Shown here: piece by piece, positions 937-45,700 of the stretch
Numbering within the stretch: the stretch's first letter is position 1
How the letters are laid out: each line of letters opens with the position of its first letter
DNA from: Seison nebaliae
Taxonomy: Eukaryota > Rotifera > Pararotatoria > Seisonacea > Seisonidae
Assembly: GCA_023231475.1 (NCBI GenBank)
Contig: JALJEE010002929.1
Location: forward strand, 1-46,549
Reading direction: 5' to 3'
DNA length: 46,549 bases
Position numbers and translations under genes: made by a program
The notes under the pieces: model-generated
Seen by the model: the letters and a program-made list of their open reading frames with translations, nothing else
Told to the model about the DNA's origin: nothing
Database searches by the model: none

Positions 937-3900
937 ATGAAAAATTCCAAAAAAACTTCCAAATATATATTAAAAAATGCTTTAACTGAAATGACTGAAC
1001 TAGAGAATTCACAAAATGTGGATGATTCGTGCACATCGTTGGAGGAAACAGTATTAAGGAAGATCCAAAGTAAGTTGAATGGATTTTTCCCGTCCGTCAT
1101 CATTTTCATTACTGGTGGTGCCAAAAGAATGAATATTACTACAAAAATGAAACGAGGATTTGAACTTGGTCTAACGCATTATATAGATCATTCATCCTTC
1201 AAATATGAATTATTCAACTATGGTCCGCTGGTGTTCGATGGGGGTAGTTTCACGGGTGTAATGAAATTAATTGGTGATATTTACGCGAAATTGGAAGCGA
1301 TTAAGGAATGCAGACAAGATAAAAGACCAAATAATTTAATATCATTATATAATGAGAAATATGAAAAAAAGAAAGATCATCGTAGAGCTATCTGTGTTCC
1401 ACTCGACAAGAATATTTTTAGCGAACGTTACAAACTGATTGCGAAAGTTTTAACAAATTATTTTAATGAAACAAATAAAGAAGAATTTATTCCTCCGGTA
1501 ATTCTTATAGTTATCGAAGGTGGAATACAATCAATCAAAGAAATTCTCATGATAATCGAATATTTTGATGGAGATGTGATAATTATAAAGAATTCGGGTA
1601 GAGCATCAAATGCTATTGTAGAATTGAAAGAAACTTTGGTAGAAATTGATGTTGAATTTGTAGATAAACATTTCGTCAGTGAATCAAAAGATGATCAAGA
1701 GGTCATAAATATTTTGGAGAAGATACGTCAAAATATTAAACGAATTCACATTTGTCAATTAGCGACGGAGAAGTGTTTGTGTCGAAGCATTCTCGATGTA
1801 TTGATCAGTGAAGGAAAAACTGAGATGCCAAAACTCAAATCTGAACCATTCGATTATGTTAAATTAAAATTTCAAATGTTGCCCACACAAACTGATAGGA
1901 GAATTCCATTTTTGAAGAATATTGGAGAGCAAATATGCAAGTTCGATTATGGAGAACAAATGAAAAATTTTATTTTTATGGATGCTCAAAAGAAACGACA
2001 AGAGAAGGACGACGGAAGGAATGACGTCGTTTCATTTATTGAAGATAAACTGATCGAATATGACAGTTACAAATCAATGGACGTCATATTGGAATTCAGT
2101 TATCTGCATCTAACCAGAAAGAGGGAGGAGGAACTCCTTGAAAAAATAATGAATTACTTCAAATCGAAAGATGGAAAATATCCATGGAGGTCTCTTTCGG
2201 TTTTCCTTAAATATTTGGTGGGAAAAGACAGACACATTTTAGTTATCGACAATGCCTTAATCGCTTCGAAGGCTTGTGGAGATAGAAGTGAACTGTTGGA
2301 AAATATCAACCGTATGGCGAATAGTAATCGTTGGAAGAAGATCTCATCGGAATTTGAAGATATTGCATTTCGCCATTGCAATAAATTACCTGAATCAGAT
2401 TACATAGAGTCAGAATCTGATAATCTTCTGGATTCGATGTTGAAGAATGCAGCTGGAATTAAGAGATTACATTTCTTCTCTAATTATTATGTGACGAAAA
2501 TCATCAGACAAAAATGGTATGGAAATATCGACAAGAAACATTATTCAGGAATACGCGTTCCTCTCACCGTTTGATTTCATCCTACCATTATTTTAATTTC
2601 TCCTTTAATTTAGTTTCTTGTCATTTTGACATTCGTCTTTTCCAAGTTTCTGTCTAGACATAAGAACATAAGTTTCTGGCATCAAATTAAAGGTGTTTAC
2701 ACTTCACCTAACGTCAAATGTTTCTGGTATTTGGTTAATTAGAAGATTTATTGAATAAACTTAACACCATTCTAACACACTCACTTCTTTCTTATATAGA
2801 TCACTTACATCTTCTATTTTCTGGTGAGTACATTTTGGTTGGTGACAAGTGACCTGGAATCTCAATTAACGATTGATAAATTGAGAATTGGAACTAAGCA
2901 TGGTTTTAACGATCAGGAAATTTGGCAATTGCTTTCAATGATATTTGCTATTGCTCACTTAATTGATTTTATTGCTAAATGTTGCACTAGAAGTGAATGT
3001 GGTGCTTGTTCTACCAATTGTCGATGTTGTGATGAAAATGAATGTCGTCAACCCAAGAAACTTTTAATCAGATCATGGGAAATTCTGGATCTGATTATTC
3101 AACTATTGATGGTTCTTGGAATGATTCTACGGTTTACTCCAAGTTCAAATTATAGTCGATATTTTTTTACAATTGCAATTATGGGTATGCCTATCAGATT
3201 ATTGGGAATAACCAGAGCAACGACTATGGTCGGTCCACAGGTACAAATGGTGATACAAATGATGGTTATATTTTTATTTAATATCTTATAAATATATCAA
3301 TTGAATAACTGATAAATTTTTTATAGTATGATGATACGTTAAAATTTGCTATTATATTCATGCCAATTTTCTTCTCATTTGCCATCGCATTTCAATCACT
3401 ATTCTATTTGAGAGATATTTGGAGATTACAAGTTTTTAATATGATGATGATCCGTCCTTTCTTCTATCTTATGGGAGAATTTCGAGCATTTAGCGAATTG
3501 AAATATGGTTAGAAGAACAAATTAAATTCTTTCAGTTCAATAATCTGATTATTAGCTGTTGAGCCATGTTATCCTTTCGACGAATTTGAACGACGATGGA
3601 ATCTGGGACAAAGAAACGTGACAAACTGTTTGGACAGTGTTGGTGGTACTTTCTTTAGTTTCCCAATCCTATTCTTCATTACTTATATGATATTGGGCTC
3701 TCTTCTTTTCATCAATATGCTCATCGCCATGTATTCTAAAACATTTGAAAAAATTATTGTTAGTTCTTTTGAGTAGAAAATCATATATTTCATTTCTAGA
3801 TGAATCGAGGAGCATCAATTTACAGTTTATACGAAATATTTGAGGAATTCAAAGATTATTCTTTTCTTCCTCCACCACTCAATGTATTTTACTGGTTCTT

Positions 3901-3985
3901 CAGATTGTGTCTATGGATAGGTTCCCGTATAAGATGTTGCAAGAAAAGAAAGAATTTCGATGAAGAATATTCTAAAACTAAATAA
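937..3985 (+). CDS. TRPM-like cation channel, six exons, C-terminally short
   Basis: Predicted 928-residue TRPM-family channel of the plasma or organelle membrane. Exons: 937-2568, 2614-2733, 2800-3264, 3327-3507, 3556-3758, 3800-3985, all joining in frame. The N-terminal half is the TRPM SLOG-type homology region: VIIFITGGAKR, FDGGSFTGVMKLIG and ILIVIEGGIQSIKEI followed by NSGRASNAIVE. Exon 2 carries the pre-S1 motif VYTSPNVKCFW. Exon 3 holds S1 (about 579-600), S2 (624-643), S3 and S4. Exons 4-5 hold S5, a pore loop with MGEF and S6 (LLFINMLIAMYSKTFEKI). The last exon has the TRP-helix motif ending FLPPPL. The chain stops about 40 residues after it, so the C-terminal coiled coil and any enzyme domain of typical TRPMs (1,100-2,000 residues) are absent. 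The S2-S3 loop has eight Cys in 22 residues. The first ATG in the frame is 937; a missing 5' exon is possible. Confidence 0.88.
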
Positions 3986-5033: not shown

Positions 5034-5472
5034 ATGAAACAAACTATCTGGTTATTTAGTTATATCGTCTATTGTATGGCGAATTTAAATAATGATGGAA
5101 CTCATCATCTTCGCTCTCAAGCTCATAATGAAGAGTTAACTAATTTATTTGCTCATTCTCTTCTTATTCTCATTCGGAAGACACATTAAAGAACATTTGA
5201 AGGAGGAACATTATGCGAAACCAGATGAAATGTCACAAGATGATCAGAATTTCTATTATTTCAAATTACATGACTATGATCACAATAACAAATTAGATGG
5301 AATTGAATTATCCGCCGCTTTTTCTCACGTCGATAATCATGAAGGTCAAGAAGAAAAGATGACGGAAGAGAAAGTTATGGGTTTGGTAGATCATGTACTG
5401 AAAGAAGAAGATGCAAATGGAGATGGATATATCACTTATGATGAGTTCTTAGCAGCAATCAAAAGATCTTAA
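5034..5472 (+). CDS. MCFD2: MCFD2-like secreted EF-hand protein (ER export cargo-receptor subunit)
   Basis: Two exons (5034-5134 and 5181-5472) give 130 residues; the human protein is 146. The first exon encodes a hydrophobic signal-peptide-like start (MKQTIWLFSYIVYCMA). The junction reads HNEEHIKEHL, matching the EHI-x-EHL segment of MCFD2. Two EF-hands follow: DYDHNNKLDGIE (preceded by YYFKLH as in MCFD2) and DANGDGYITYDE near the C terminus. In animals MCFD2 works with the lectin LMAN1 (ERGIC-53) to carry glycoproteins from ER to Golgi; that role is inferred from family membership. ATG 5034 is the only start giving the signal peptide. The single intron is 46 bp and begins GTTAAC. Confidence 0.88.
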
Positions 5473-5700: not shown

Positions 5701-7342
5701 ATGATTTTATTCTTCATTTCACTTATTCAATTAACTTCTGCATTCAACTTATCAACAAGTTTCCACTTCTTATTCGTTTAATTTAAATCCAATTGAACAG
5801 ATCATGACGATTATAAGAATTTGAGAGGATTGATTGAGAATTATAAATTCTATTCAGCTCCTTCAAATTTCCTCAATTCGAGTAAGACGCGTGACAATAA
5901 AATCTCTTACACAATTAAACATTATCTCATCGTTTAAATTGATTCTTATTAATCTTAAAATTTTCATATTTGAAAGGAGAAGCAAAATGTTTTATCCCGT
6001 CGATATCATGTCAACGTTCTATTCCGCATACGAATTGTTATGTTTATAATTGTGCAATTTTAGTTTATAATTTTTCCAGAAATGGGAAGATGGAAAAATT
6101 GAACAATTCCAAAATCAAAATCTTCCAAGTTGACAAATTTTAAATGTTTCAATTATAATTCTTTTCGGAAAGATCTTATTGATTTGACATCATTCACTCC
6201 ATATTTATGGTTGCCGTTGAAACGGTTCGATTTGAAACGACATGATGATGGAGAGATTGTGAGATGGAATCATGAATTAACGTTGAATATCGAAGATAAT
6301 TCATTCACAATCACTTTCCACAAACTTCATCAGATGACTTGTCATTTAATGGATTCATCTGCCAATCAAATGAAATGTGAATCATCAGTTAAATTTAATA
6401 TTCTCATACCAATTTTCAGTTTCTCAGATTTCATTATTCGAACCGAAAATAAAGATGACGAGTCATTTAGAAGGTGATATAATTAAATCTTCATTGTTCG
6501 AAATGGAGAATTTCAAAGAAGAAAATTTTATAATTTCATTCCATCTCCGATTTATGCATCAGATATCAAGTTACGATTTGATTAAAGAGAATTGATATCA
6601 TTTCATAATATAAATTTCAGATATTAACATTTATTTATGTTATTCAATTTTAACTCTTTTGTATTTGTCATTCGGATTGTCAATCGTAAGTAGAGAACGA
6701 ATATATTTATTGTCGATTATTCTCATTCTGGTGACGTTACTTCTCGTTTCGTTCTTTGTTTCAGGTGACATCTTCTCGAAACACTATTATAATCGAATCA
6801 TCTTCCTCACCGTTTATTCGACATTCCTCTGCATTTATATCACTGTCTTCTGGATGAGATTAGCAATTGGTGATCCAAATGTTTTCTTAAAGTTTTCCTT
6901 CAACAACTTTTCTAATTAATATTCTTAAAGAAGATTTCCTCAAATTATGAAATTATTCATTCTGAATTATCTTTCATTTGTCGTCGGGTTATCAGGAAAG
7001 ACAAGAGAAATTTCTGAAGAGATTTTAAAGTTTTTTCTTATTTTAATTTCATGCACTAAATTAATTTATTCATTCGATTGTATTAAATAAATTGGAATGA
7101 TGGAAAGAATGGAGAATGAGAGAATAGATGAGAAATCGAATGATCATTCTCATGAGAATGTCAACGTGTCAACAGAATTGATATTGAGATCATTGAATGG
7201 ACTTTATAATGAGAAGAAGGAGAAACGATTGCAAGAATTGTATCGTTTCCAATGGGAAGTATGTGGAAATGTTATAAATCGATGTTGTTTCTCAATTTTT
7301 ATTTTTTTTAATTTTTTCACTTTTTATCATTTCCTCTATTAA
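5701..7342 (+). CDS. Divergent Cys-loop ligand-gated ion channel subunit, nine exons
   Basis: Predicted 419-residue pentameric-receptor subunit. Exons: 5701-5758, 5801-5931, 5977-6036, 6080-6128, 6173-6387, 6428-6569, 6621-6891, 6931-7029, 7108-7342. It starts with a signal peptide (MILFFISLIQLTSA). The ectodomain has the KWEDGKIEQF (W-x-D) element, PYLWLPLKRFDL in the place of the loop-A 'iW-x-Pd' strand, and the Cys-loop C156 to C168. TM1 spans about 222-241, TM2 245-264 preceded by R-E (nAChR-like E at -1', suggesting cation selectivity), and TM3 276-296. A loop of roughly 90 residues precedes TM4 (about 402-419), which ends at the C terminus. Oddities: the Cys loop has 11 instead of 13 intervening residues and lacks the FP(M/F)D core, TM1 lacks its usual Pro, and no vicinal Cys pair is seen in loop C. 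It is probably a fast-evolving nAChR-like subunit. The ligand is unknown. Confidence 0.78.
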
Positions 7343-8225: not shown

Positions 8226-10811
8226 TCAATTTGTTGATTCGATTTCTTCCAACTCTGGCAATTTTTCCAATCTCTCCACAATTCTCTCTAACGGCAGAAA
8301 TCGACTACTATGTTCATTAACTCCTGTACATACAAAGAAATGTACGAGAAGACAGAGTAAACAATTGATCAGAAAATGTCGTTCATAAACAGATAAAATT
8401 TCCGTTAAAATATTCGCGTTATTTTCATAACCAATCGTTGTTGTTGTTGTTGGGAGTTTTGAAAAGAAAGAAGAATATGAGAAGGAATGAAAAATGATAT
8501 AACGTGTTTGTTCACCGGTAAAGTTGCCTGCTAGCAACACGGAACGTAATTGTACGTCGTGGAGGTAATAGAGGAAATTATTCTTTACAACAAATTGAAC
8601 AATAGGAATGCGTGCCTTCAACTAACAAGAATGATAAGACGTCAATAATAGTTCCGATATTAACTTTTTTAATTTGTTTCATTGTCGGTTTTAACGGTGG
8701 TCCTTTCGTAGCACCTGCATCATCCAAACGGAAATATGTCCCAAATTTCACCTGAAAACAAAACAATCGACAATAAAAAGAAATTTTCAGTTTTTTCTTT
8801 AACCTCCCTCGGATAAGTTTTCAAGGATGATGATACACCGCCATAATTGTTATCTGGTGGTTTGTCCGCAAATACGTGAGATGAATCGAAACCTTGAAGG
8901 AAGTCTGACAACTTAAAAAAACGATATTTTTCAACAATAAACAAATGATTAATTGACCAACATAAAAAATGTCCGTGACATCAATTTTCGGCATTGAAAT
9001 ACGTAAATTTGTCGGTTCCCATAACGATAAGATTTCTAGGAGGAAACTTTCATTTATGATACTATGTGCACGACGGAATACACGCGGTTTATTCTGTTGC
9101 AACGCTATTAAACTTTCACTTAATTTCAAAGCGACAATATTCTCCGTTTCTTGAGAGTCATATGAATAATATTCATATTCCGACGATTCGTCATCTTTTG
9201 GTACATCTTGTAAAATTTTAGACGGGGTTGGTTTATTCATTTCTTCTTTCTTAACCGTCTTCAATTTGAACGTGGATGGTGGTGGGTTATTAATGACATT
9301 CTCCTTAACATAAGGAGGACTCCAAAGAGTAGGTCGAATGACTCGGTGAAATGGTTGTTTACGGATTGATGTTTTCGTTTCAAGTCCATGCTTACTCTCA
9401 TCATAATGTAGAAGTAGTTTCTTCATTTGTTCATTTGATCGAGGAATCACTAAAGTTAAACGAAGTTTACCCGCTAAATAAATAAAAAGAATTAAGAAAA
9501 TTAATTAAAGTTATTCATCATCAACTCTCATCACTAACAACATAAAGGCATTGCGATGACATGTAAACGTTTCTGCTTATAATATCGATAATGAAAGTCA
9601 GTTGATTGTAGTTCTATATATGGCATCACTTTATTATGTCCAGAATAACAGCGAAAAGTTCCCAAGTAATCATTCCTGAGTGTATGAACATTCCTATCCC
9701 AAAGAGCTAAATTAATTAATTAATTTAATCCAAGAAGATCGAATATAAACTGGTAAATTTTTGAAAGGCAACAATTGTCATTGGGTTCATTTTTTTCATA
9801 TCATTCATACTTAAGAATTTGATGAAAATTCTGACTCGTGGACAAATTCTACGTATTCTGTCTGTGATAGCTTTTCGATGTCTCTCAAATATAACTTCAT
9901 CCTGCGCTTCTGTTAATGTTGCACCATAACAACTGTTGACCTATTTTGAATATGGAATAGAAATGGATACTAATAACTGTAACTGAATGAGTAAAGAAAG
10001 TATTTAATCGATCGTCTACTGGATAAGGTTTAGCAGCAACACTAATAAACGATCGGAAATTCATTCTCAACCGATCACTTATTCCATTGGCGCCATGGAA
10101 TGCGTTCTGATAAACACATTGTACTTCTTCCGTTCGTTTTCTTTTCTAAAGAAATTCTCAACTTTAATTGAATATTTTTCATTTGACTAACTAATAGTAT
10201 ACGATCAAGTTGAGCTTCATTCTTTATGTTTTTTCTTCCCAAATCATCTGCCACTTTCAATAATTCATGTAATGGATTTATACCTTCATCCTTACATAAT
10301 TGTATTAAGTTATCAACCGAATTCGTTTCAGTGACATCAGTTTTAGTTTCTTCATCTTTGAATAGTGACATTTCTAAATTTAATCATAAAAATGAATAAT
10401 TTTAATATAAGATCTGACCGCTTGGATGATGCCAATTTGCATCTATTAATAATTCTCTTAGACAATCGAATAATTTTATTTCAAATTCTCGCACTTTATC
10501 ACAGCTATATGGCAAATTAAGAATATTATAAAGTTCTTGAGCTGTTTTACCTAGTGCACCAGAAGCCAAAAATAAAATTACCGTTGACAGTTGAGTGGGT
10601 GACATGAGAGTTGAGCAACATGGATCTAAAATTAAAGAGAGTAAAATGTTAAAATACAAAAGTTGTTGGAACCTCGATAATATTTGAAGACATCTAAACA
10701 ACTGAGAGCGAAATTCAATTGCTTAAGTCTCACTTGTTTTTTTAAACTAATCACATCATTCGTTGAATAATTGTACGCCCTAATCGTTTTTTCATCTGCA
10801 CACACATCCAT
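8226..10811 (-). CDS. Divergent serpin-fold protein with internal insertions and hydrophobic C-terminal tail
   Basis: Ten exons: 10811-10673, 10625-10419, 10373-10192, 10145-9984, 9940-9751, 9706-9542, 9473-8962, 8911-8804, 8751-8665, 8621-8226. They make 715 residues; serpins are usually about 400. Serpin marks in order: LKQLNFALSCLDVFKYY, then LMSPTQLSTVILFLASGALG (the FFSP..ST..ML..GA helix region), TLWDRNVHT (the 'FKG-x-W' strand), LRLTLVIPRS (the 'i-i-LP' strand), DFLQGFD, and NNFLYYLHDVQLRSVLLAGN (the 'PFLFFIR..tg.iLFmG' end). The presumed hinge reads DDAGATKG rather than E-E-G-x-E-A-A-A-A-T, so it is probably non-inhibitory. About 55 extra residues lie near 116-176, and an acidic Tyr/Glu-rich insert sits in exon 7. 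After the serpin end come 95 more residues with a hydrophobic stretch (666-685). I see no signal peptide. Exon 2's donor is GTC. Confidence 0.8.
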
Positions 10812-11104
10812 TGAAAGAAAAGGTTAAAATTTTCTATTTCGATTTTCAATTTTAACCCAATTTAATTTTCTTATTGAATTGTATACTCAATCATCCTAAT
10901 ATATATTAAATATTATTTTAATTTCTTAACTTGCCAACTAATAAACTTTACTACATAGAAAAATTAAATTTATTATGAATGAGAATATTGGAAATATATA
11001 TTATTAATTGATAAATTAATGAAATTTTTCGACAGTTTAATTGTAATCATTTTATTCCGTGGTCATTTTTTAATAGTTAGACAATTATATAGTTAGATTT
11101 ATAC

Positions 11105-11682
11105 CTACCAGTACTGGTATTCATCAGTAAGAGCATCGTTTGGATCACCAGATAGGGTCGTCAATAAGGGTCGTCCAGAATTTGTTTCCAATGGTGAAGG
11201 CGTAGGTATTTCCGATATCGAACTTTCGGAGATTGAAGAGGAAGTTGTTTGTGGAAGAACCGTAGTAGGATCTTTTCGTTGGATTGAACTATCAACTTTT
11301 GATGTTAGTGATGGTTTTTCAGTTTTGGATCCTGATGAAAATTTCAAACTGTTTGCAGAAGTTAAACGGTTGGAAGAAGTCCTATCTGATTTAATCGAAG
11401 TTCTTTGGGAAACTGGTCTGGTATTGGATTGTTCAACTTGTTCCGTCGAGAGTTTATCACTAAAATCTGAACTTCTAAAGGTAGAAACTGATGTTGAAAT
11501 AGATTGAGGATCATTTGAACTTTGAGTTCCTACAGATTCTCTTGTTGTACTTTTTGTTTTTATGGATGCAGTCGATCGAGGAATATTCGAGAAAGTTCCA
11601 ACTAATATTGATGTTGATGGTTTTCTGGATGGTTTTTTGGCATGAATTGTTGAACTAATTTCTTCGTCGTCCTCGTCATCAT

Positions 11683-11725
<43 letters not shown>

Positions 11726-14800: not shown

Positions 14801-14872
14801 TAAACTAATTATCGAAATTGATTTATCATAATCATCTTTATATTGTGACTTCCGATAATCTTCGCGAAATAG

Positions 14873-17450: not shown

Positions 17451-18854
17451 TTAAAAAAAATGATAAAATGGAAATTGAAATTCCTCAGGATTGCCATAAA
17501 GGTCATAAAGGAAACAGAGTGCACCACACCAACCTTCAAAGAGAGAGAAAGGACGATCAGGAATTCGAGCTTCTTTAAATGTTTCACTAAATAAAAATTG
17601 ACTGAACATTTTCCCACGTTCCAACCAAATTACATTACCTTTTTTTGTTGAATTAGAAGATGGATTTGAAGAAAAAACTTCTAATCAAATTGGTAACTTG
17701 TTAATTTGAATAAGTAAAGGAACATATAACCGTTACCGGAGATACCATGACAAAGACCTGGTCCTTTTTTAAGTAAACCTTTTTTCCATATTAATTCTCC
17801 GAAATCATTCAAAATTTTCATTTCATCAAATTCTTCTAATGATAAGTTTCTTTCCTTTCGAACATTGTTCATCAGAATCAAAAGTGGAACATAACCAGGT
17901 GCACCATGACACCAATGCACTAATTCAGCTTGTCGATTACGTGATGATTTCGATGATGGAATATTGCCATCTTGAAAATTTTAAATTTTCCAAATTAGAA
18001 AATATCAAGAGAAAATTATAAAAGGGAAACCATGATTTTGGAAAGTTAAAATTCTTCGTATTTTCCTATAAATCAAATTCAATTGTTCGTTATTAAGATG
18101 TCGATGATTCATTAAAAGAGTTCCTACAATTCCACAAACACCATGTGCTCCTCCATAATATTCCTTATCATGCCAATACCATTGGAGATTAGATGTGGAA
18201 TTCTTCATCCCATTTCTCATTATTTGACGAACGACTCCCTCAATCACTTCGTCAATAGTTGAGAGAATATTGGAATAGTTCATTTTAATTAGTAGTTCAG
18301 ATAAATATTTCAATCCCATTAAATATCCTGCTTTTCCTGTCAACATTTCATCATTCTCTAAATAATTTTCATCCTCATTAATCATTCGACCAATATGTAC
18401 ATATTCTTCTACACAGCTCTTAACCAAATTCATATTAACAAAAGGAAATCGAATAAATTGATTGAATATCACCAAAATTGGAAATGATGCGTCTCCATTA
18501 ATAAATATTCGACGTTTCTTACTATTCAAATCATCATTAAACTTTTTAGTAAAATCTCTAATGAATCTATCGATTTTTCTCTCACATTTCTCAAATAACT
18601 GGAGAAGATAATAATAACTTATTTTAGAATTAAATAGAAGATTAAACATGTTTATCGAGATTCTTTATAAAATTCAACATTTTCAATAAAGTCCAACATT
18701 GACCTAATCCGCCCGTATATAATCCACCATTCTCATTGAAATCATTATGGATAATGTCAGAAATGACTACTTTCATTTTCATGAATATCGTTCTCTTATC
18801 ATCAATCTGATGAAGTTGAAGACTATTCCTAAAATATCTCTCATTCCCTCCCAT
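17451..18854 (-). CDS. LANCL: LanC-like protein (LANCL), four exons
   Basis: Exons 18854-18648, 18598-18031, 17970-17698, 17638-17451 make 411 residues, close to the usual 400-450. LanC-fold marks: RYFRN at the N terminus, GGLYTGGLGQCW, LTGKAGYLMGL, WHDKEYYGGAHGVCGI, then the zinc site VHWCHGAPG (C279) and GLCHGISGNGYMFL (C332, H333), and IPDRPFSLFEGWCGALCFLYDL near the end. The three zinc ligands are intact. Animal LANCL proteins bind glutathione and are reported to add glutathione to dehydroamino-acid residues; assignment to LANCL1, 2 or 3 is not possible here. Convergent with the FKBP-TPR gene, 111 bp between stops, with AATAAA-type signals for both strands in the gap. All three donors are GTT. 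Confidence 0.92.
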
Positions 18855-19883: not shown

Positions 19884-22800
19884 TCAGATCAGTAAGAGAC
19901 TGACAATTTCATTGTCAAATTTATGATGATTCAACTTTTCGAAAACATGTTCAGCATCTCGTGCTGTTCGAAAAGCGATGATGACATCACCAGTCGCTAA
20001 GCCATCATCAGTCTGACGTATTTTAATCGATTCTTCAATCGGATTATAATCTCGGAAATAATTATAAATATCAGAGCGACAAGCCTGTTTAGGACAGTTT
20101 GTAGCAATTATTAAACGTCCCTCAAACTTCGTCAATTCTTTAGGAATAGGCGGTAAATTTTTGTCGATGGATTTCGAAGTTAAAAAATTAGAGTCGGTTG
20201 GACCTGTTACAACCAATGAATTATTTCCAATTTTGTTGTTGTTGTTGGTAGTGGTGCTGATGTTATTATTGTTCTTATTAATTGTTGAATTTTGATGATG
20301 ATGATTATGTGATGTATTGATTGATGATTGACTATAAGCCGTAGAGATAATGTTAGAATTATTATTTTCGTTGATATCTACAATGACGAAATGAATTGGG
20401 AGAATTTAAGAAAATTTTTAATATTTGCTTATCTTCAACTAACTAACCGGTTGGTTGGGGGAGTGGAAGTAATGGATTTTTCGAATCAGGTCCATCATTC
20501 GAATAACCGTTTGACGGCGAGTAATTATGATGACTTTTACTCGTCGAATTAACTCGAGTATTTGACGAATGAGAATGCGCATTATGTGAACTACCATAAT
20601 TCATTGAATTTCTCGAATAATTATCATCATTATATGATGAATTGACATCATTTCTCGTTGAATAATTCTTATTTGAATTATTATGAGTACCATTAACAGT
20701 ATTATTGTTGTTATTGTTGTTGTTGCTGTTGTTAGTGGAAGAAGAATTCATACTATAACTCGGTTTCATATAGTTAACTGATCGTGTATTATTCATTCTT
20801 TTTTCTTCATAACTTCTATTGTGATTATTGTTGTTGTTATATGACGGTTTCCCATTTAAACCATTCCCACCAATCGATTTCGTATCAATATCACTCATCA
20901 ATGGTTTTAATGATTTATGATTTCTATAAATATTGTAAAATAATAATATATTTAACTATTTGTTCAAAAACTAACATGCTATTGCCATTGGATGATGAAT
21001 TAGTCGATATAGTATCAGAATTCCGTGAATAAGATCTACTCGGATTACTAGTCATCGGATTTGATCGATTGACATTATGAGAATTTGGATGATATGGATA
21101 AGTATTCTTCGATGAGCTCTGATATCTTCTTTCTGTTGCTTTCCGATAATAATCATCAGATGAGATACAATCAACAAATATTATTCTAATTTAAAAAAAT
21201 ATTTAATTATTTTCAAAAAAAAAACAAAAAAAAATATGAACCTTCCTCCAAATTTTGTTCGATTTAATTTCATTTGAGCATTTCTCGCATCATCACTTAG
21301 AATGAGATGAATGAATGCTACAGTTTGACGTTTGCATTGCCATTCCGTTTCGAGAATATGAACTGATTCTCCATTTGCTATTTGATAATCGGATAGTAAT
21401 CGACAAATGTCATCATTCGTACAATCTCGAGGAACATTAGCGATAGACAAATAATTGAATGAATTCTCTCCATTACCATTAGTAGTTGGATGATGAATAT
21501 TATTATTATTTCCATGAACAGTTGACGGATTTGTCACTTTCGGTTGTCGAAATTTATTTATTGGCGGTTCCATTTCCTGATTATTTCTTGACATTTTCGG
21601 AGGAATTGGCACATCGTTCATATGTAATGAATGTTTGCTAGAACTACTTGTTCGGAACTTACCAAAATATTCGATTAGTTTCTCATCCAAATCTCTCTCC
21701 GACACTTTTTCTACTGTTAACATTTGTCCTAAGAATTGCATACCGTTCGATGAACGACAAATACTCCTCACATCCACATCATTCGGCATCAAAACAATCG
21801 CATTGGAGAATCGTCGTTGTCCAGGTGGATAAGAATAAAGATAAACATCTCGATCCTTCAACGGAATCGATTTAAACAATTGACGAACATCAGACTTTTG
21901 TACTTTCGTTTGGAAGGACGACAATTTGACACATTGTCGATATTCGTCAAGAAGACGTGAATGTTCTGGTTTGTATGAATCAACGAAATTGACGAATTCA
22001 AATTTCGTTATTGGACGAACGACCAATTCTTCGATTTTGCAATTTGGATTAGCTTCGATGAATTTCGCTCGATCGATATTCTTCGTCTTAACAATTCGAT
22101 GAACGTGATAACATTCCTCTTTATGTGAGAGAGAGAGTAGGACACGTCCCGTTCGACAACCATACTCATCATTAATAAATTTCACATTCTTCTTCGTAAG
22201 AAGAACGGGCGAAATGAGACTAAGAATTACTGAGAAGGAGCAATCTTCATCATTTTTGGGGAAACGACTAATTTCTAGACATTCACAAGTAAATTCTAAT
22301 GAATAAGGTGTTTGTTGTTGAATTGGTGAATGTATTTGCGAAGTACGATAATTAGATGGTTCGACTGGAATGTTGTTGTTGTTGTTGTTGTGATTAATAT
22401 TATTATTAATATCTTTATTAAATCTCGTGAGTGAATGATCATAATCTTTCCTCTCATACGAATCGTTTAATTCTCGAGAATCAGTTTTATATGATGCAAG
22501 TGGTGGTGATGATTGCCGTAATCGTTCCGATTCATTCAATTTATCATTATTATACACAACTTTCCGTTGAGTCTGCTCAGGCAAGCTAATGGGTTTTGTC
22601 TCTTTCCCAGTCATTTCACTCTCAATTTGTGGAATGAGTTCTTGCATCTCCTCCATACTACTCTGATAGAGACGAATCTTATTGTCAAAGAACATCTTCC
22701 CATCCAATCTCAATGCTTTCTCCGCATCTTCTCTCGTGACGAATGCGATGAAAGCATTTCCTTCTCGACCTCCAACAACATGAACACCACCGTTCGGAAT

Positions 22801-24776: not shown

Positions 24777-24814
24777 TTTCAGTAAACTATTATTCGATAT
24801 TAGAAGATTCTCAT

Positions 24815-27427
24815 TTAAAAACATTTTAACTTTTCACTTTGAGGTAGTTCTGAAATTTTTTCTTCGATTTCTTGTTCATGAAAAATATCTCCGAAAACTC
24901 TGAGACATTTTTTAGCGATTGATGAAACTCTCACATCCTTCGAAATCTAATTATAAATTAAATTAGTTTCCACATTTAATTTCAATTGACAATTTAACAG
25001 CAAATAAGAAGATAAGTGGAAGTATTTTCGGAATGAATTTTGGAAAGTGAACTTCATATGAATCATTCATCCATTGGAAAACCTGAAGTGGAATATTATT
25101 AGTTATATTATTATAACACAAAAAACTGAAAAAATAATTTACAAGTTTGCTAAATGACTCAAATAAGACATTCAAATCTGATACTCGATATTGGGCGTCA
25201 CTCGAAATTCCAGGTAGACGATGAACTTGAACTTTGCTATTCAAACTATTAAAACTTCCCAATGGTTGTAAATCTGGAAAAATGATTAGACAAGTATAAT
25301 AATAATATTAATAATAATAATATAAATAATTTTTAAAACCGTTCTCCATTTGTTCATCAGAGGAATGTCTTTCCGCTTTATAAAACATGTCGATCGCACT
25401 ATTGAGAGTGAGTCCATGAATATCTTCATAAATTATTATTGTTGCATTCGTTCCAGCCTAATAATAATTTATTTCTTTTAAAAGGAAATTGAACTGTAAA
25501 TAATTTGTCTAATTTATCAATATTTTCTTCGGTGAGTGTGAGATGTTGAGGAAGATTTCTTAAGATGTTCAATCCTCCGTCAACTGCCATCACTTTATCA
25601 ATAACGTTCTCATCTTCGATTCCAATCGAATTCCTCCAATTCGCAAACTGTAAAACTGTAAATTCTGTCATATAATTTAAAAAAAATTATTTAACTGAAG
25701 CTCGTTCATCTTTAATGTGGAAGAATCTTCGTAGTTGTCGATAAACTTTACTGAATTCTTCTTGATCTTCGTAAGTCTGAGAAAGAATGACTATACATTT
25801 GGCCGCTCCATACCGCAGTTGAGAATCATCATTCGATGTTAAAATGAAGAGAATCGGAAAGAATTTTAAAGTGATTTCATCAGTTATGAGAAATTTCTTT
25901 AGAGTCGATCGATTGGCATGTCCTTTCTTTTCGTAGATGATATGAACTCCATTTAGAATGGCAAGTTTCGATCCATTCGTATGTGTTTCACTCTTGAGAA
26001 TGGAGAGAGTGGCCTCAACAATAATATCGATGAAATGTTTCAATTGTTTAGTAGTCATGAGGAGGATCATATGACAAAAAGCGTTACACGCTGAATCTTG
26101 AGTAGACTCATTTTTACTTAATGTCAATCGCAGAATTAAATCGATTAATAATCGAATTTTCTCATCTTCCCATAATTCGAAATTCATATAATCTTTCGTT
26201 TCTTGAATTCCAGCTAATAATTGCCATGCTTCATTACCATAAATTCGGACGTTATCTGTTATATGTGACCGATTGATGAATAGAGGACAACACATTTTCT
26301 GTGCTAATTTCACCAGCAAATCACTTCGACTCACAGCCGAATGTTTCTTTTGAATTTCTTGAAGTTCTTTTGGTAATTTAGTTTTCATTAAATTTCGATT
26401 ACCATCTAAAATTCGTACAAGTGATCGAATAGTTTTAACTGCAGCTACTCGTATCATCGTCCAATCTTCGAGGAGAGCTTTACTGATGAGATCTAATGTT
26501 TGATTGAATTTCTTCAGAAATGGATTTATGTTCATATAAAATTGATATTCTTCATCACTTAAAATGAAAGGAGCATACGGTATACTTAATCGTTGACCAC
26601 TTGCTATTTGTGTCATTTCTCCTATCGATAAGGAAGCATAGAGACTCGATCGTCTCAATCGATCTTCTTCAATCAATGACGAGTCGATTATTGAACAAAT
26701 TATACGAATTGCTTCTAATGAAATCTCTCTGACATAACGATTCGGATTAGACATACTATAAACCACAGTTCTGTAAAATAGACAATTATCTGCATCTTCT
26801 TCTGACTGATTGCCGAAATGTATCAAAATTTTCCTTTCTAATATTTCAATCATTTTCATCATTAATCTAACATAATAACATAACGATTAAAGTTCATTGA
26901 AAATAAGAGATTATTAACTTATAGGCATATTCCACATGCTTGATAATAGTACCACCACCATCATCTGTATTGTTCAAATGCTCTTGAACACTCAACAACA
27001 AAGTTTGTTCGATAATCTCATAAATGACAATTCCACTAATTCTCACTAATTCAACGAGAACAAAACGAAGAATTCCACGAAGCGACTGAGTCGGATTAGT
27101 GAGAAGTGTATTACCTGAAGATATTCGACCATAACTAATGTTTCCAGTTCTACTTATCGTATTCATCGGTTGCAATTTCAAACATGCATAACATACATCC
27201 TTATGATATTCGAGATCATCCTTTTCCTGATTAATCACCACATTAATAACATGGAGAGCACCAAACTTTTTTTGGACACTTACTGATTCTTCTTTGATTG
27301 TGACGAGAGCAGCCAATTTCACTTCATCCATATATTTCTTGTCATTATTTAAGTCTTTCGATAAGTTCAACAAGATTTGATCACGACGCTGTTTCGTACA
27401 ATTAGAAATGTCTCCAAAAATTTCCAT
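24815..27427 (-). CDS. HEAT/ARM-like repeat protein B (tandem paralogue of the next gene)
   Basis: Seven exons: 27427-26919, 26866-25696, 25647-25495, 25457-25340, 25273-25143, 25082-24999, 24946-24815; 765 residues. The chain is almost wholly alpha-helical with paired helices typical of HEAT/ARM solenoids, for example EDWTMIRVAAVKTIRSLVRI, RYGAAKCIVILSQTY and DVRVSSIAKKCLRVFG. It aligns throughout with the adjacent gene: FYRTVVYSMSNPNRYVRE against LYKSLMNACLCENRYVKD, and LFESFSKL-VFQWMNDSYEVHFPK against LFESFCLM-LAQWLSECYKKNFPK. The C-terminal part faintly resembles Maestro-like (MROH) HEAT proteins; I do not claim that identity. No catalytic motif. Intron 5 begins GTA, the only such donor found. 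Confidence 0.75.
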
Positions 27428-27585: not shown

Positions 27586-30363
27586 TTAAATGTCCAATGT
27601 GGATTCCTGATCATTGACTACTGGTAGAGCAACTAATAAAGTAGTTTGCAGTTCATTATTTATTGAGATTAATCTATCAAATATCTCAGAAAGAAGTTGG
27701 AAAAAACTAATAAACTTTTCAGAATGTGGCAATTTCTTTAATTCACTTTCCACATTTGATTGTCCGAATTCGATGTTAAGTCTCTTGGCTGTTCGTTTAG
27801 CTGAAAGACTTACTTTCGGATCGTCATAATTCTAAATTTTTTTTTGTATTTCATTTTATTAGAGAATACACAAAATTTGGTTAACTATCAAAATAAAGAC
27901 GATTGGTATTATTCGTTTATAATATTTGGGAAAGTTCTTTTTATAACATTCAGAAAGCCATTGTGCTAACTAAGAAATTGAGGAGAACTATTTCTAAAGT
28001 GAATTTGAAACTAAAATAACCATAAGACAAAACGATTCGAAGAGCACACTAATTTCAGTTATCTTAAAATTCCCAGAAATGGTAACTGCTTTCTGATAAT
28101 TTTGTTCTAATTTCTCATTCATTTCTCCAACATCTTAGGATTAGGAGAATGAATTTCAAATTATCATTATGATGTTTAACCGTTTCCTTTTGCAATTTCA
28201 AGTACTTCTATATTACTTCTTCCTCGATTTAATTTTTCTTGTAGTGCGAATATTTCATCGAAAATGTCGCCAAACTTTTTCTTCGGATAAAATGCATGAA
28301 GATAAATTCGTTCGATTAGAGAAATGGAATGCTAAAAAAAAATTTAGTAAGAAAATAAGAAAAGACCGAACAGCTAAAATAGTGTCGAGAGCTGTCGTAT
28401 GTTTATTTAATTTGGGTAGATAACAGGGAATTTCTCGTTGTATCCGAATTGTCCCATCGATCTCATTAATCAATTTCGCTTCTTGTTCCTTTTTTATACT
28501 TAATGAGTAAATGTTATAAATAGAAAGATTAACTGGTTTTATGGTGTAGATCATTGTCATATGATGGTTAAGTATAGTAAATGTATCAATAGTATCATAA
28601 GTACAGATGATGAGAGTGATGGTATTTGCGGCACCATCTCTCACATCAGAATTGCTGTGACTCAACATTTTCATTAAATTTTGCATTATATGTAAATTCT
28701 GTTTTTTCGAGATTGGTGCAATGTTGCTACTTTTATCAGTATTCTCTTGTTTTGTATAAACATCACCGATTGTCGTAATGAGAGCGATGATACATCCAGG
28801 TGTGTAATTATCATAACTCTTTAAAACATTTAAACAATTTTGAATGATCAAATTCAACATTTCACTATCAATATTAAATTTACATTTATTCATCACATTC
28901 TCCACACCGATCGCTACACTTTCTAGAACGGCTTCTGATGCTTTCGGTAATTCGGTAATTAAAATCTTGACTAAATGTTCGAGATCAGGAGAATCCCATT
29001 CATAAATATCTTTCAAATGATCGAGTTCGATTAATAATTCCCAAATTTCTCTCGCCGCATAACGAACCATATCAGTAATGAAGAAAGTGTTTTGATATAA
29101 AGGAAATTTTACTTTTTTAGTAATCAATTCTAGAACTTTTGGCACAGCGATTTTGTGGACACTATCCTTAAACTTCTTCTCATAATTAACAGATAAAGCG
29201 AGATTGTCAGGTCGATCAGTACGATCATCTAAAAACTGAATTAACGTTTTTAATGCTCTCAATGATGATAATCGGATATTGATCCATTCATTATTCATCG
29301 ATGATTCACTGATATCGATGAAGGTATTGAGATCTTTGAGAATTGGATGAATTGCTCGGAAGAATGTCACTTCTTTCATCGATAACCGTTTATGTGGTGC
29401 TGATATCATTGTCGATATTCTTCCCAAATGTGAACGATGTGACGTCCTTCCTGTAAATCCACTCAATACTGATTTCTTACTTGCAGCAGAAACAGTCGAA
29501 TTAGTTTTATCACTTCTCATTTCTGGAGTAGTAATCAACAACAAGTTTCTGAGACAAACCAATCCCGTATCTTTCACATATCGATTCTCACATAAACAAG
29601 CATTCATCAAACTTTTATATAAGCCACTCGGTTGCTTCTTGTTTGCCATATGGATAATAAGATCATAATCTAACATTAACATCATCTTTTCAATTAATCT
29701 GATAGTTTCTAAGAAATGGAGAATAAAGACAATCATTCCTAACTTTAAAAGAAATTCCACATCAGGATAAGCATGAGCGGACGACTATTGAAGAAATAAG
29801 AAATTTTTAATATCCCTAAAATATTAACATGAACGGAAATCTTATTTTTCGCTGATAAATTATTATCGATCGTTCGACAAACACTCGGTTCCATACTGAC
29901 AAACATGTCCATTCCACCAACTTCTACTAAATGTGTAACTAAACTACCTAAAAAAAAATGAAGAAATTTCATTTAACTGTTACTATTAGGAAAGTTAACG
30001 AATGATTCCTTTAAATCTCTTCTTTGGTGTTAGTAGTACATTAATATCTGGTCTCGTTTCAGTTTCTTTTTCGAAATCTTTTTCTAACAAAACTTTCAAT
30101 GCAACGATCATTATTTTTTCAAGACTATGATTCGCCTTTTGGAACTCTTCCAGGAGAACGTCAAAGAAACAAGCAGCACCATAAACCTCCTCAATTGTGG
30201 CATGTTTATTAGAAAACATCTCCATGGAAATTTTGTAAAATTCCTTCAGAATTGAAGAATCGTTTGTTGCGATTTTGCGAACATCGGACAATTTCTCCCG
30301 TCGTTCATTTGGTTTCATCTCATAAAGTGTAGTGATTTTCCCACGCACATCTTCATTAGACAT
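27586..30363 (-). CDS. HEAT/ARM-like repeat protein A (tandem paralogue of HEAT-B)
   Basis: Eight exons: 30363-30000, 29947-29835 (or to 29829), 29784-28534, 28488-28372, 28331-28181, 28133-28021, 27969-27886, 27831-27586; 812 residues. Solenoid-like helices throughout, e.g. INIRLSSLRALKTLIQFLDD, MVRYAAREIWELLIEL and DVRDGAANTITLIICTYD. It shares order, spacing and five 3' intron positions and phases with HEAT-B, and the penultimate coding exon is 84 nt in both, so it is a tandem duplicate. The N-terminal exons differ in structure. HEAT-B starts 159 bp downstream on the same strand. Several 3' exons are short and would be missed by a single-frame view; they were placed by matching HEAT-B. Family identity is unknown beyond HEAT/ARM-like; a scaffold role is only inference. 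Confidence 0.75.
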
Positions 30364-30491: not shown

Positions 30492-33400
30492 TTAGATTGA
30501 GCATTTAATTCGGAATTGAGAATTAAATGATGATCGAATTGCTGAATTTATTTCTTCAGAAATGTCAATTTGTTCGAGATTAAAATTAAAATCTTTTGGT
30601 TTCTCTTCAATTTTATTCTCGGAAAATCTTTCAATTTCCAACAATTCGTCCAATTCTTTATTCTCTTCAACAATTCTATCATGCAAAACATTTGATGTCA
30701 TTCTCTGTAAATAAGAGGGAAGATGCATTTTATGTGGAATTAGTGTCGATGAAATTGTTGGAATATCCTCCAACCACAATCCAAAAAGATTTCGACCATA
30801 ATGACGATTTATTAACGGAAATTGATAGAAATGAGAACAAGTTGCAAATGATTGATCTGGATCAATTATTTCTCGATTAAAAATTCCTCGACTTGATGTT
30901 TCTTCTTCTAGATTGAGATATGATTCCATATCGATTCCATATTTGCATGAAATCGAATAGAATTGATGGAGAATGATTAGAAGACTAAATGGATTCTCTT
31001 GTAAGAGAGCAATGTCGAAGAGACGATGAAGGAAAGCCATTAAGCGGTCCGATTGATTATTTGTTCGATTTCGATATTGAAATAATTGACCTATAATTCG
31101 GATAATTATCACCAACAAATTCTCTTGATTTTCTTGTTGGAGATCGTTGTAGAAAGGATGATTACAAGCAGATAATGCATATTCTTCTACAAAGTTCGAT
31201 GGAACATGATGCACATAACATAGAGATGAGAATCGATATAAATGACTTATAATTCTTTGGGGATCGAAACGAAACATATTTGTCATCGATGATTGATTCT
31301 GCCACAATAAAATTATTGTTTCGATACAATGCAAACAAGATGTCACTGATAGAACATGCTCTTCCATATTACTACTATTATGTCGATATATATCATTGGT
31401 GTAAACATTCAATTTCCTTTCGATCATATCTTTCACATTCTTCCCACCATCCACCTTCCACATTTCTTTCGTTTGTTTCTCCACCATCATCTGTTGACGA
31501 TGAAGAGCCAAACACAGAATATTCACAATATCTCCATAATATTCAACATTGATCAAATGAGAGAATCTATAAAGGATTATATATTGAATTATATATAAAA
31601 TCAAAGTTTAGGAAAATGTCAAGTAATTTTGGAAAATTAAATTTTTGTTTAATGAAAATATTAAATAATGTTATATTATCTATTTCAACTCAAAAACGAT
31701 TTAGATGAGAAGAAATAAAGAATGATATGAAAATAATTTCCGCAATTTTTGACACTGTAGAAGGACATTAGTCGATCAATCCTAATCAGTAACACTAAAT
31801 TGCGATGAAAAAAATATACATATAAATTTTAACTTTCTTAATCCTTTAAGGATGGAAGCCAATAAAATTGATTTATTATCATTCTTCAGTATATGAAAAT
31901 AAACTAAAAATATCTTCTCCAAAATTTTCGTGTGCTGAAAATGAACAAAATGAAATAATTAGAAATAATTATTTTAAAGAAAGAAAAACATTTTGAATTT
32001 TCTTCTTTTGTTTCGTTTCGATATTCTTTTCAATCAATTCTTCTTGAGTCTTCCTTAATCGTTTCATTTCCTATTGAAATTAGCTCATTGAAATTATTAA
32101 ATTATATGATGAAAATGAAACTCTTCTATTTTTGCGGGAAGCTGATTTCTCTTTATCTTTCAATTTCACATTCTCCGTTTTCCTTTCACGTTTCATCAAT
32201 CGTTCTTCTTCTGTTGGACATGCATCCACTGAACAATATGAGAAGATTTCGATTAATTCTTTCGAAACATTGTAATTTCTATTCTTACATAAATGTACCA
32301 GAATGTTAACGATAGCGAGTGATAACTCACCCGTTTCATCATCAACTAAATAACTCCTCAAATAATTTCCAACGATCGTTCTTATCTAGAATATAATAAA
32401 ATTAATTTGTATAATCAAAATTCTTTCATAAATAATTCGAATGTTTTTCATTTCAAACAAATTCTTTTTTATGAAGACAAATAAAAGAATCTATTGAATA
32501 ATGAGATGAAAAATGAGATAATGTAGTTCCTTGTTGACTCCATAGAGACATCGGATATCAGTCAAATGGGAAACACTAGGAACAATAAACAAAAGAAATA
32601 ATTGGAAATCGAACGAACTTCAGTTGACGAATGTCCCATTTTTGTGGCGAAAATGATGATGACATTATTGATATAATTGAAATGAGAGAGATGTAACAAA
32701 ATTTCTCCATAACATTTCAACGCCATTATTTGTAATTTCTACTTGATGAAAATTAAATGAAATTGAGAATTAAAAGAAGAAACTTTAGAAGTTTTCATTG
32801 ATAAATTCTTTTCAAGAATTTCCAGATATTGTTGATATGATGAAAGTAAATGTTCTTCATACTCTCGAAATTCTTTCGTCATTTTCTTCATTCGCTGATC
32901 TAATTCTTTCTCAGTATATTGTCGAATACGATAAGAAGGTAAAATGTCTTTAAATATTTCAACGAGAGAAATACAGGCATATTGTCGAATGATAACCATC
33001 GTATCCTTATTTTTATCATTCCCATAAGATAACAAATTAGTTAATCGTTCCACATTCTTTTCAGGATTGCTGATAATCGATTTACTTAAAAATGATATTT
33101 CTTCTTTTGCTTTTTCTACCAATTTTCGACGATATCGTAATCGTTCCATCGGTTCCATTTTCACTAGAATATCATTGATCGATTTCTTTTTATTCTTCTT
33201 TTGAGATGTAATAGAATTGATATGGTTTAAAGAATTATTATCATATTCTTCAAGTTCTTCCTCCAATTTTGTGCGATGTATTACATTTCCATCTTTACCG
33301 ATAATTGGCAATAGTAATTTTTTGAAGTTTCGTTTTCTTTTATCTAATATATCTTCATCATCATCATCATCATTAGAAGAATAAATGTTATCTTTCTCAT

Positions 33401-42710: not shown

Positions 42711-45700
42711 TTAGATACTTTTAGTTGTTTCTGGAAGAATTTGAAATAATTCCAAATCAATCGATAAAGTACCACTCTCACTACAATTCTTTTCTATACA
42801 TAAAAATTAGATTAAAAGAAGAAAATTGAAATTTAATTTAACCTATCTCATTCTCTAAAACCACTTCAGTCATTGGATGTAAAATAAAAGTTTGACTACT
42901 TCTTTCCTCATCTTCCCAATCTTCATCGTCAGGAACGATGGAGTCTGATCTATTATTATTATTATTGCTGTTGGAAAGCAAATAATTCATTTGTGGCATA
43001 TTCTATTCAATTGAAAATTATTAAAAATTTGAATAATTTTCCAACTTTTTCAATGCCACTTTCTGTTGGTTTTGATATAGATATTTTTAGCAGATCTTCT
43101 TTGTAAAGACTATTCTCTTTCAAATCTTCAATAAATGATGATTCTTCATTGTTTCCTGAGAGAGATAAATCCTTCACAATATTATTCTGGAAAATATGTC
43201 GATCGGTTTCTAATATGACTGGTGAAATTTTCGATAATGATGATTGTTTGGAATCGATCTTTTTCTCTGATTCCGGATTAACATTCTGATAAGTTGTCTT
43301 GTTCTTTAAACTCTGATTTTCATTCACATTCTTTTTTTCCATTTTTTCATCCTTACCTACTGTATGATTCTCTTTCACCATTTTAGCTAATAACTTTTTT
43401 CGTGAATTTTTCTTTTTTTCACTTTCTTTAGTTGATGAATTAGATAAGTCGATTATTTGATTAATATTTTCATGAATTTTATTTTGGTTCTCCTTTGTAG
43501 TTGACGATGTCTTCTCAGTTTTTCCACTGTCCTCATGATATGTTTGTTTATCTTTCAGTGTTTTTGATGTTGCTCTACTTGATCTGATGTTGGAGATTGA
43601 AGAAGATTTTATTGATATTTTCTTATTGATAATTCTCCTTTGTAATACATCCGGTGGGCATCTTTTTCCAACATTAATCTTCTCAACTGATTTATCCATC
43701 GCTTCTCTATCTAATGATTCCTTTCTTTTATTGTGCAAGGACGTTCTCTGTAAACGATTAATTCTTCTATGATCCATAAACTGATTGCTTGATAATTGAC
43801 GGGATTTATGTTTCATATTTTTCGGAGGTTGCAAATAATTTACACTTTCACTCCCAGTTAGTAATTTGTTAAGATAACGTTCCTGACCGTGATTTGATGA
43901 TGATCCTTGAGAACACCGAAGGATAAAAGTGATTGTATCAAGTACTTCTTTATTAATTTTAGAAAGATTTTGTGCTCGTCTCATCGTCGGTTCTAACTTT
44001 CTCCTATCCATTCTTTTAAACTTTTCTTTCTTTACAAAATATTCAGGAATTGAGTTCGATTGATTCTTATTATCTAATGCTTTCTTCACGGCCGCCCAAC
44101 CATTACCTGACCGAGATCTACTACGATGTTTTCTCCGATAATTATTTAATTCTTTCATTTTTTTTGGTTGTTCTACTCGATTACCATTATTCTTCATATC
44201 AAGTGACTGAGTTCTCACAGGAACATTATTATTCTTGGATTTATGAGCAACCGGGAAATTGAGATTAAGAATTCGATTATTCCATTGTCGAAGTCTTGTC
44301 AAGTTGTCAGTTACCATATCTTGATATAAATTTAAATGATTTAACGATTCATCTTCATAATATGAAGTATTCAAATTCTCCAATTTCGAAGTGTCGATAA
44401 TAATCGGAAGTCCTTCATGAGGATATGATTTTAATGTTTGGAAAGTCGCTGTCTCCGCAATGTCAAGTCCTGTTCCTTTGTTGATGTTATTTAGTTTAAT
44501 ATCATTTCTCTTCTTTAAATGGACATTCCGATTGCGTAATTTCTGACATTCACTTTTTATATTCTGTTTAGCTATAATTTTTTCCTGAAGATTTATTATT
44601 TGATTTTTCAATTCTTCTACAGTCGTTGACAATTCCGTAATTTTGTCCTTCAATTCTTTATTACCTTTTTCTAATACGTCAATTTTCTTCATTTCTATTT
44701 CATCACTCAACGTTTGTTCGGATCGATTTCTCTTGTCCCATTCATTTAATCTATTAATTGTTTGTTCAATCATAGCACAATCTTTCTTAGCAGCTTCATC
44801 AATTCTAACCATTTGTTGTAAACAATTCATTTGAGTTGATAAAGTGAATTTTGAAAATTCTTTGTTTTCTGAAATCAATTTCGGTTGAGGAGGTATCGGT
44901 GGTTTCTGGATCAATTTTTTTAGTTTACTTCCTATTCCTTTACAGACAACCGGTTTTTCCACTTTATTAATCTCTATTTCATTAATGTCGACTTTTTCTA
45001 TTGTTGATGACTGTTTATTAGACATTGGTGGTAATTTCACTAATTGTTGAAATGTCATATGTTTTATATCGTCGTTAGTTTTGTTGACTTCCACCTTACC
45101 AAAATCAAAAGGCATTTCTTGAGTATTCACCTTCTTGAATTCACACCATTCTATGGGCATTTCAATTGACTTCCTTTTTGAAGTAGTGGTAAGTGTATTT
45201 TCTATTATCGTTGCATCTTCTCGACCAGTGTCTAAACGAAAACTTTCAGATCCTCCCCCTGTATTATCGAACTTCTCTTCTCGATTTTTTCCAGTCACGA
45301 GTTCATTTAATGATTTTTCATATTCTTTATCTATCGCCATTAAACAATTGTCTTTCACTTCCGATGAAATTGGAGGAGAAGAACCGAATTGTGGTTTTTC
45401 AACTTCATCAAAAATCGGATCTGTTTGTTTTTTAGGTTTCTTTTTTTTAGGTACCTTTTTGTGATTTATTTTTCCATAAGTTTTTTTAGTTTGGTTTCTC
45501 CTAACATTATTTCCTTTCACTTTCGCATTTATGTTGTTCCTAGCATCTTTCTTTTTCTGCTTTTCTTCTTGTCGACGTGTTTTCCTTTCTTGTTTAATCA
45601 GCTTTTTGTTTTTCTTCTTTAGAAACGTTTTAATAAATTGCTGAAACGCTACTTTCTCTGTTGATGAAGCGCTACTACTAGTTTTATCTTCACTACTATC

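Follow-up and report, generated by a model that had tools for sequence, protein, structure and literature searches.

Which part of the splicing machinery reads an intron whose 5' splice site (donor) begins with GTT? The question is raised by a 46,549-nucleotide stretch of DNA from the tiny marine animal Seison nebaliae (Metazoa, Gnathifera, Rotifera, Pararotatoria, Seisonidae), hereafter the window, which is contig C101 (GenBank JALJEE010002929.1) of an assembly of 36.03 Mb in 846 contigs (GCA_023231475.1). An initial annotation, made from the letters alone on the assumption, correct as it turned out, of an animal source, had placed 52 introns in this window and described T at intron position +3, found in 50 of them, as genome-wide-looking. 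We found that the observation is real and genome-wide, and that the major spliceosome of Seison very probably uses a recoded pairing between U1 small nuclear RNA (snRNA) and the donor. The switch was examined in this one species, in a draft genome and by sequence analysis.

Introns in the window were re-derived independently of the earlier list of 52 with a neutral gene model, which relies on codon use and stop codons, demands no more than GT at the donor and AG at the acceptor, and is blind to position +3. Under the strict setting, T stood at +3 in 34 of 36 introns, the background frequency of T after GT being 0.405; looser settings gave 37/42 and 40/48. Some of the 36 strict calls are doubtful (e.g. 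2569-2799, 7284-7592 and 10780-11114), and of the six extra non-T calls of the loosest setting, three lie near 14000-14900, where no gene is known, while two run antisense to the fatty acid synthase and one to the gene at 8226-12363. As for the two exceptions named in the initial annotation, GTCAGA at 10418 (-) was present in the letters and was called as an intron, and the letters at 25142 (GTAAAT) were also as described, but the model called no intron there. The LANCL gene, which had been put forward as one that fixes its donors, proved to do so. Its gene model showed 100% identity over the query to the deposited Seison nebaliae protein SNEBB_007993 (P0241), and this protein fixes three introns, all with GTT donors (Table 1). 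When any donor and any acceptor were allowed, two of the three junctions were unchanged (GT-AG), and the remaining one moved by one base with an identical protein. The third junction is independent of the gene model, because the query stopped before it.

For donors outside the window, genome searches yielded 139 protein kinase and 79 Ras GTPase matches, from which 39 interrupted-looking loci were taken; locus L068 was left out of the alignment. Spliced profile alignment was performed with profiles built from uninterrupted Seison members of the two families and ten outside kinases, and was run twice: with any GT as donor, and with all 16 dinucleotides as donor while AG was kept at the 3' end. 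With any GT, 82 introns were placed (+3: T 74, A 4, C 2, G 2). The reading frame stays open across sixteen of them, which could be protein inserts (T 11, A 1, C 2, G 2), and the other 66 must be removed (T 63, A 3). The strict set, in which the intron must be removed and has no near alternative, consisted of 60 introns at 28 loci, with a median length of 49 and with T at +3 in 58 and A in 2 (P = 1e-20 for at least 58 of 60 at the background of 0.405). Of 1905 GT sites in these loci that are not donors, 664 were followed by T, a locus being counted anew for each of its introns. When all 16 dinucleotides were permitted, 61 of the 82 placed introns started with GT, and 60 of these with GTT. GTT was also obtained at introns that interrupt invariant motifs, e.g. 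HRDLK and WDTAGQE, and the donor of locus L029, read from the DNA, was GTTCCG. Position +3 of the strict set carried 1.33 bits of information, -1 carried 0.29 and +5 carried 0.24.

With regard to intron class, the purine that U2-type introns have at +3 was lacking in all but two of the strict set, and the GT-AG ends of that type were recovered in the kinase and Ras loci (GT in 61/82 without a donor rule, AG imposed) and fit all three LANCL introns. An arrangement such as that of Fritillaria, in which most intron ends are other than GT-AG, does not describe these introns, as GT-AG placements fit. U12-type donors carry ATCCTT from +3 to +8; here T predominated at +3, and C was present at +5 in 6/60 and at +6 in 5/60. 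The 3' ends were ordinary, as the initial annotation had described, the base before AG being T in 30, C in 21, A in 8 and G in 1 of the 60 introns.

The same neutral gene model, a generalized hidden Markov model, and the same filters were applied to a genome sample of twenty 10 kb stretches from twenty contigs, which gave T at +3 in 58 of 74 introns (18 loci) outside the window. Because many such calls are weak, each sample donor was scored against its best alternative; with the window included, the share of T was 79/95 without a threshold, 47/52 at a support of at least 2, 28/30 at 4, 12/13 at 6, and 0/1 at 10. This course indicates that many of the non-T calls in the sample are misplacements, but some are probably real. 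A gene model that allowed any dinucleotide as donor and used no homology did not recover GT (18/106) and cannot place donors alone; GTT was its most enriched start (15/106, 8 times background). That failure, together with the 22 of 82 homology-placed introns that were dropped as skippable or ambiguous, would favor the idea that the GTT pattern is an artefact of misplaced introns or wrong gene models. We consider this hardly credible, since it is contradicted by the homology-based placements, in which GTT holds without any donor rule, by the deposited LANCL protein, and by the position of introns inside invariant motifs.

U1 genes were searched for with the Rfam U1 model (RF00003), 41 of 293 first-look candidates being scored. 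The assembly contains at least four (112.9, 112.4, 108.0 and 97.4 bits, all above the gathering score of 69.5), a number that is a lower bound. In three of the four, the 5' end reads AUACUAACYUG, with A replacing U at position 6, the base that faces intron +3 (hereafter A6 U1), and AAC of this end is complementary to GUU at +1 to +3 of the donor. The canonical 5' end of the Rfam type, AUACUUACCUG, was found in the fourth gene. The initial annotation had predicted that the 5' end of U1 carries a compensating change or that the donors depend on U6 or other recognition, and had proposed that the U1 and U6 genes be located and the U1 base opposite +3 be read; this base is A in three of the four U1 genes and U6 is canonical. 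The U1 alternative is thus supported, because ACAGAGA is intact in the U6 gene found, as is the usual loop in the U5 gene. The canonical U1 gene in the same genome had not been foreseen. A pattern search for both 5' forms returned the four genes and one extra match (C629), which is not a U1 by Rfam.

The four U1 genes differ widely, yet 15 of the 41 base pairs in the consensus have changed on both sides, with compensation, at least once among them. This indicates that the A6 copies diverged and were yet kept in shape, which argues for working RNAs rather than fresh pseudogenes. Loop II reads AUUGCAC, the letters bound by U1A, in all three A6 U1s, and AGAGCAC in the canonical copy (L002, 1501-1664, +). 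In one A6 U1 (L004, 1501-1659, -) position 9 is likewise altered, to U (ACUUGG), so that pairing with an A at -1 would be possible; among the strict donors A ranks second at -1 (14/60). The 5' ends of the A6 U1s (L001, L003 and L004) contain UACUAAC, which is complementary to the GUAGUA branch-binding site of Seison U2; UACUAAC is also the classic branch-point sequence. A 9-mer, TCACACTTT, lies upstream of two U1 genes (L004 and L002) and of a U2 gene (L026) at -73, -95 and -91, respectively, i.e. at no fixed distance, and is possibly part of an snRNA promoter.

The remaining snRNAs were canonical in the copies read, as is usual for U2-type introns: ACAGAGA in U6 (L005), the loop GCCUUUUAC in U5 (L092; also given as GCCTTTTAC), and GUAGUA in U2 (read in L026 and L028, two of the three copies found). 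The Seison introns are assigned to the major spliceosome, of which they would represent a variant. A different possibility is that GTT is chosen after the U1 step, by U6, U5, Prp8 or a further protein, the U1 change being a by-product. Intron +3 contacts U6 after transfer from U1, and the loose letters at +4 to +6, which the initial annotation had pointed out and we also observed, would be unexpected if donors were filtered by U1 pairing alone. Non-Watson-Crick contacts between donor and U6 are discussed in the available part of PMC13326754. However, the canonical U6 and U5 genes found offer nothing that accounts for a switch to U, and a gene of the Methyltransf_10 family with NPPF (METTL16 type) is present; we therefore regard selection at a later step as very improbable.

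In the crystal structure of human U1, the partners of intron +3 and +4 are pseudouridines 6 and 5 (PMC4383343, in the part available). For the 60 strict donors, the mean of the predicted duplex was -3.64 when the A6 end was used, against -2.18 for the canonical end; donor by donor, the A6 duplex was stronger in 49, equal in 3 and weaker in 8. At the GT sites of these loci that are not donors, the means hardly differed (A6 -2.22, canonical -2.18). The area under the curve (AUC) for the separation of true donors from other GT sites was 0.64 with the A6 end and 0.51 with the canonical end. These results indicate that A6 restores what the canonical U1 lacks, that GUU makes up most of it, and that the remaining helix is weak.

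The canonical U1 might instead be the working one, tolerating a U-U mismatch at +3. The A6 copies would then be minor or silent, and drift in an AT-rich genome would have taken the donors to T once selection by U1 was relaxed. In accord with this, a canonical U1 gene exists; oligonucleotides with U at +3 were better competitors with U1-C than without it (PMC4383343, in the same part), and U1-C of Seison is altered. The U1-C gene (L089), the joined exons of which begin with MPKYYCDYCD and the first intron of which has the donor GTTATA, encodes the zinc finger THNQGKNHKGNV, aligned to human THCSGRKHKENV. It differs from the human protein at Cys25, Ser26, Arg28, Lys29 and Glu32, among others, and is otherwise well kept; the letters aligned to human Arg28 and Lys29, which sit near the phosphate backbone according to the part of PMC4383343 at hand, are K and N. 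Nevertheless, drift would not yield T in 58 of 60 donors against a background of about 0.4, the canonical end fails to separate donors from other GT sites, compensating changes keep the three A6 genes in shape, and the loop II letters have been lost in the canonical copy and not in the A6 copies. We thus consider a working canonical U1 with drifted donors to be very improbable.

Several points weigh against a recoded U1-to-donor pairing. The AUC of 0.64 is modest, and G at +5, which should pair with C4 of U1, is present in only 18/60, so that beyond GUU there is little pairing strength. The choice of donor must be aided by other features, and the very short length of the introns may be one of them. 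The canonical U1 lies about 1.5 kb from an A6 gene, tail to tail, on the same contig (C208), and therefore does not come from a stray contaminant contig. In the upstream regions inspected, no clear promoter shared at a fixed distance was found. Moreover, GTATTC (L016, 3129-3176, +), the only sample call with a support above 10, and GTATTT (L006, minus strand; support 5.3) both look like complete short introns, and some non-T donors are probably real. Further exceptions are GTAATT, GTACAA and GTACAG in the kinase and Ras loci and GTCAGA in the window; GTGAGA was seen once with a support of 2.5 (L025) and once in a read-through stretch (L039). The GTA introns of L016 and L006 are candidates for service by the canonical U1. 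We looked for a set of GTRAGT donors of the canonical kind that this U1 would serve, and no clear one emerged.

Taken together, the letters of U1 and of the donors favor a recoded pairing, and the following mechanism is proposed. U1 carrying A6, supplied by at least three genes, would pair with U at intron +3, so that the central pair of the helix would be kept as A-U with its orientation flipped. Recognition of the donor would proceed mainly via GUU, with -1 and +5 contributing weakly; U1 would then depart, and the donor would pass to ordinary U5 and U6. The canonical U1 may serve the few non-T donors or another task of U1. That the A6 U1s are expressed and bind the GTT donors, and what role the canonical copy has, we infer. 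Historically, a duplication of U1 is likely to have been followed by a stage at which donors of both kinds were read, and then by the loss of nearly all GTR donors. Whether the A6 U1s took over nearly all introns via such gene duplication, while the canonical U1 was kept as a largely orthogonal second U1 for residual donors or a non-splicing task, we rate as an even chance. If this is true, Seison would have a natural orthogonal splicing code, both parts of which are still in one genome.

Table 1. U1 genes of the assembly and introns of the window. Positions without a contig handle are those of the window; gene names in brackets are those of the initial annotation.
Feature	5' end or donor	Location	Strand	Basis or remark
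A6 U1 gene	ATACTAACCTG	C208:8280-8439		read on own strand
A6 U1 gene	ATACTAACCTG	C647:4426-4585		read on own strand
A6 U1 gene	ATACTAACTTG	C762:47440-47598		read on own strand
Canonical U1 gene	ATACTTACCTG	C208:6576-6739		read on own strand
LANCL intron	GTTTAA	18599..18647	-	deposited protein P0241; unchanged with any donor and acceptor
LANCL intron	GTTTCC	17971..18030	-	P0241; one-base shift gives same protein if GT-AG not imposed; LANCL2 alignment spans junction
LANCL intron	GTTACC	17639..17697	-	P0241; unchanged with any donor and acceptor
Doubtful intron (TRPM)	GTTTGA	2569..2799	+	neutral gene model; in-frame stop TGA immediately after
Intron (TRPM)	GTTATA	3265..3326	+	neutral gene model
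Intron (MCFD2)	GTTAAC	5135..5180	+	neutral gene model
Intron	GTTTCC	5759..5800	+	neutral gene model
Intron	GTTTAA	7896..7954	-	neutral gene model
Intron	GTTAAA	8752..8803	-	neutral gene model
Intron	GTTTAT	8905..8942	-	neutral gene model
Intron	GTTGTT	9474..9541	-	neutral gene model
Intron	GTTTAT	9707..9750	-	neutral gene model
Intron	GTTATT	9941..9977	-	neutral gene model
Intron	GTTAGT	10146..10191	-	neutral gene model; matches A6 U1 fully, +1 to +6
Intron, exception	GTCAGA	10374..10418	-	neutral gene model; 3.5 nats over best alternative
Intron	GTTCCA	10626..10672	-	neutral gene model
Doubtful exception, 335-base intron call	GTACTG (at 11114)	10780..11114	-	neutral gene model; support 2.0 nats
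Intron (RBM12)	GTTAGT	20378..20447	-	neutral gene model
Intron (RBM12)	GTTAGT	20924..20975	-	neutral gene model
Intron (RBM12)	GTTCAT	21186..21241	-	neutral gene model
Intron	GTTCAA	25458..25494	-	neutral gene model
Intron	GTTAAA	25648..25695	-	neutral gene model
Intron	GTTAAT	26867..26918	-	neutral gene model
Intron	GTTAAA	28134..28180	-	neutral gene model
Intron	GTTCGG	28332..28371	-	neutral gene model
Intron	GTTAAT	29785..29828	-	neutral gene model
Intron	GTTAAC	29948..29999	-	neutral gene model
Intron (NOC3)	GTTTTT	31935..31989	-	neutral gene model
Intron (NOC3)	GTTTCA	32071..32121	-	neutral gene model
Intron (NOC3), acceptor unsure	GTTTCT (at 32783)	32739..32783	-	neutral gene model; loose end 32739, strict end 32386
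Intron	GTTGGA	43003..43045	-	neutral gene model

The GC content of the sampled Seison DNA was 31.35%, which does not fit Proales similis (45.5%). COX1 was searched for and was absent. The published Seison assembly GA2, which may differ from the one used here, has 31.9% GC and 43.9 Mb in 3301 contigs, and 36.5% of the metazoan BUSCO genes are missing from it (PMC8351084, in the part available); the same paper names public RNA-seq of Seison (ENA PRJEB43415). Elsewhere in the window, a fatty acid synthase (34315-42408, +) occupies one intronless open frame of about 8.1 kb in a genome that has many short introns elsewhere; its best full-length relatives among the matches listed were rotifers and other spiralians, and in the tree it grouped with rotifers, with a long-branch warning. 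A 5S ribosomal RNA gene (117.7 bits) lies at 46415-46533 (-). Outside the window, the sole lamin-tail locus found (L091) has the C-terminus HVQKTIYS, unlike the published Seison lamin ends, and the DNA at the end of its exon is GTC; a genome search with the published C-terminus YAMEYNTVVE gave no match. Alternative end exons or a second lamin gene may be present outside the fetched DNA.

The donor and U1 appear to have been altered together at one pair, with a U1 of the ancestral type still present, which makes testable the long-standing question of how a base pair that thousands of introns use simultaneously can be replaced. On the practical side, gene prediction trained on GTR donors may go wrong in such genomes, the BUSCO gap of GA2 being a possible case only. 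In our searches of the open-licence PMC literature, we found neither an animal described as having GTT donors nor a genome in which the default U1 is of the A6 form, although the depositors of the Seison annotation may know of it.

Suppressor U1 constructs and minor human variant U1 genes are known in which altered 5' ends can redirect splicing by base pairing; these are, however, laboratory constructs or minor genes and not the default of a genome. The nearest precedent found is the diplonemid S. specki, in which canonical and variant U1 5' ends coexist; its second U1 has a run of C at the 5' end and pairs with the usual donor about as well as the canonical one, and, unlike in Seison, no single-position donor switch is reported with the variant U1 in the available part of PMC12621601. 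In the Bigelowiella nucleomorph, the canonical U1 motif is retained without a donor motif (PMC6461891, in part). The case of Eurytemora affinis resembles Seison in that unusual donors (GA, GG) are common in an animal, but there about 12% of introns are concerned and +2 is altered (PMC5714493, in part), whereas in Seison it is +3 in nearly all. A survey of 240 Saccharomycotina yeasts and outgroups describes a comparable clade-wide departure of one donor position from the usual base; there the switches are at +4 and are tied to METTL16 and SNRNP27K, without a compensating change in U1 or U6, and the U1 letters ACUUACC did not vary among the genomes in which U1 was identified (227/230 and 9/10, 236 genomes), according to the part of PMC10581693 available. 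In Seison, by contrast, a switch at +3 is accompanied by a change in U1. Lastly, Fritillaria borealis is likewise an animal with donors massively off the norm. In the part of PMC13326754 at hand, its U1 5' end is strictly preserved, a duplication of U2AF and N6-methyladenosine are invoked, and a divergent U1 is named as the route not taken; the GT/AG ends themselves are altered there, whereas Seison keeps GT-AG and alters U1.

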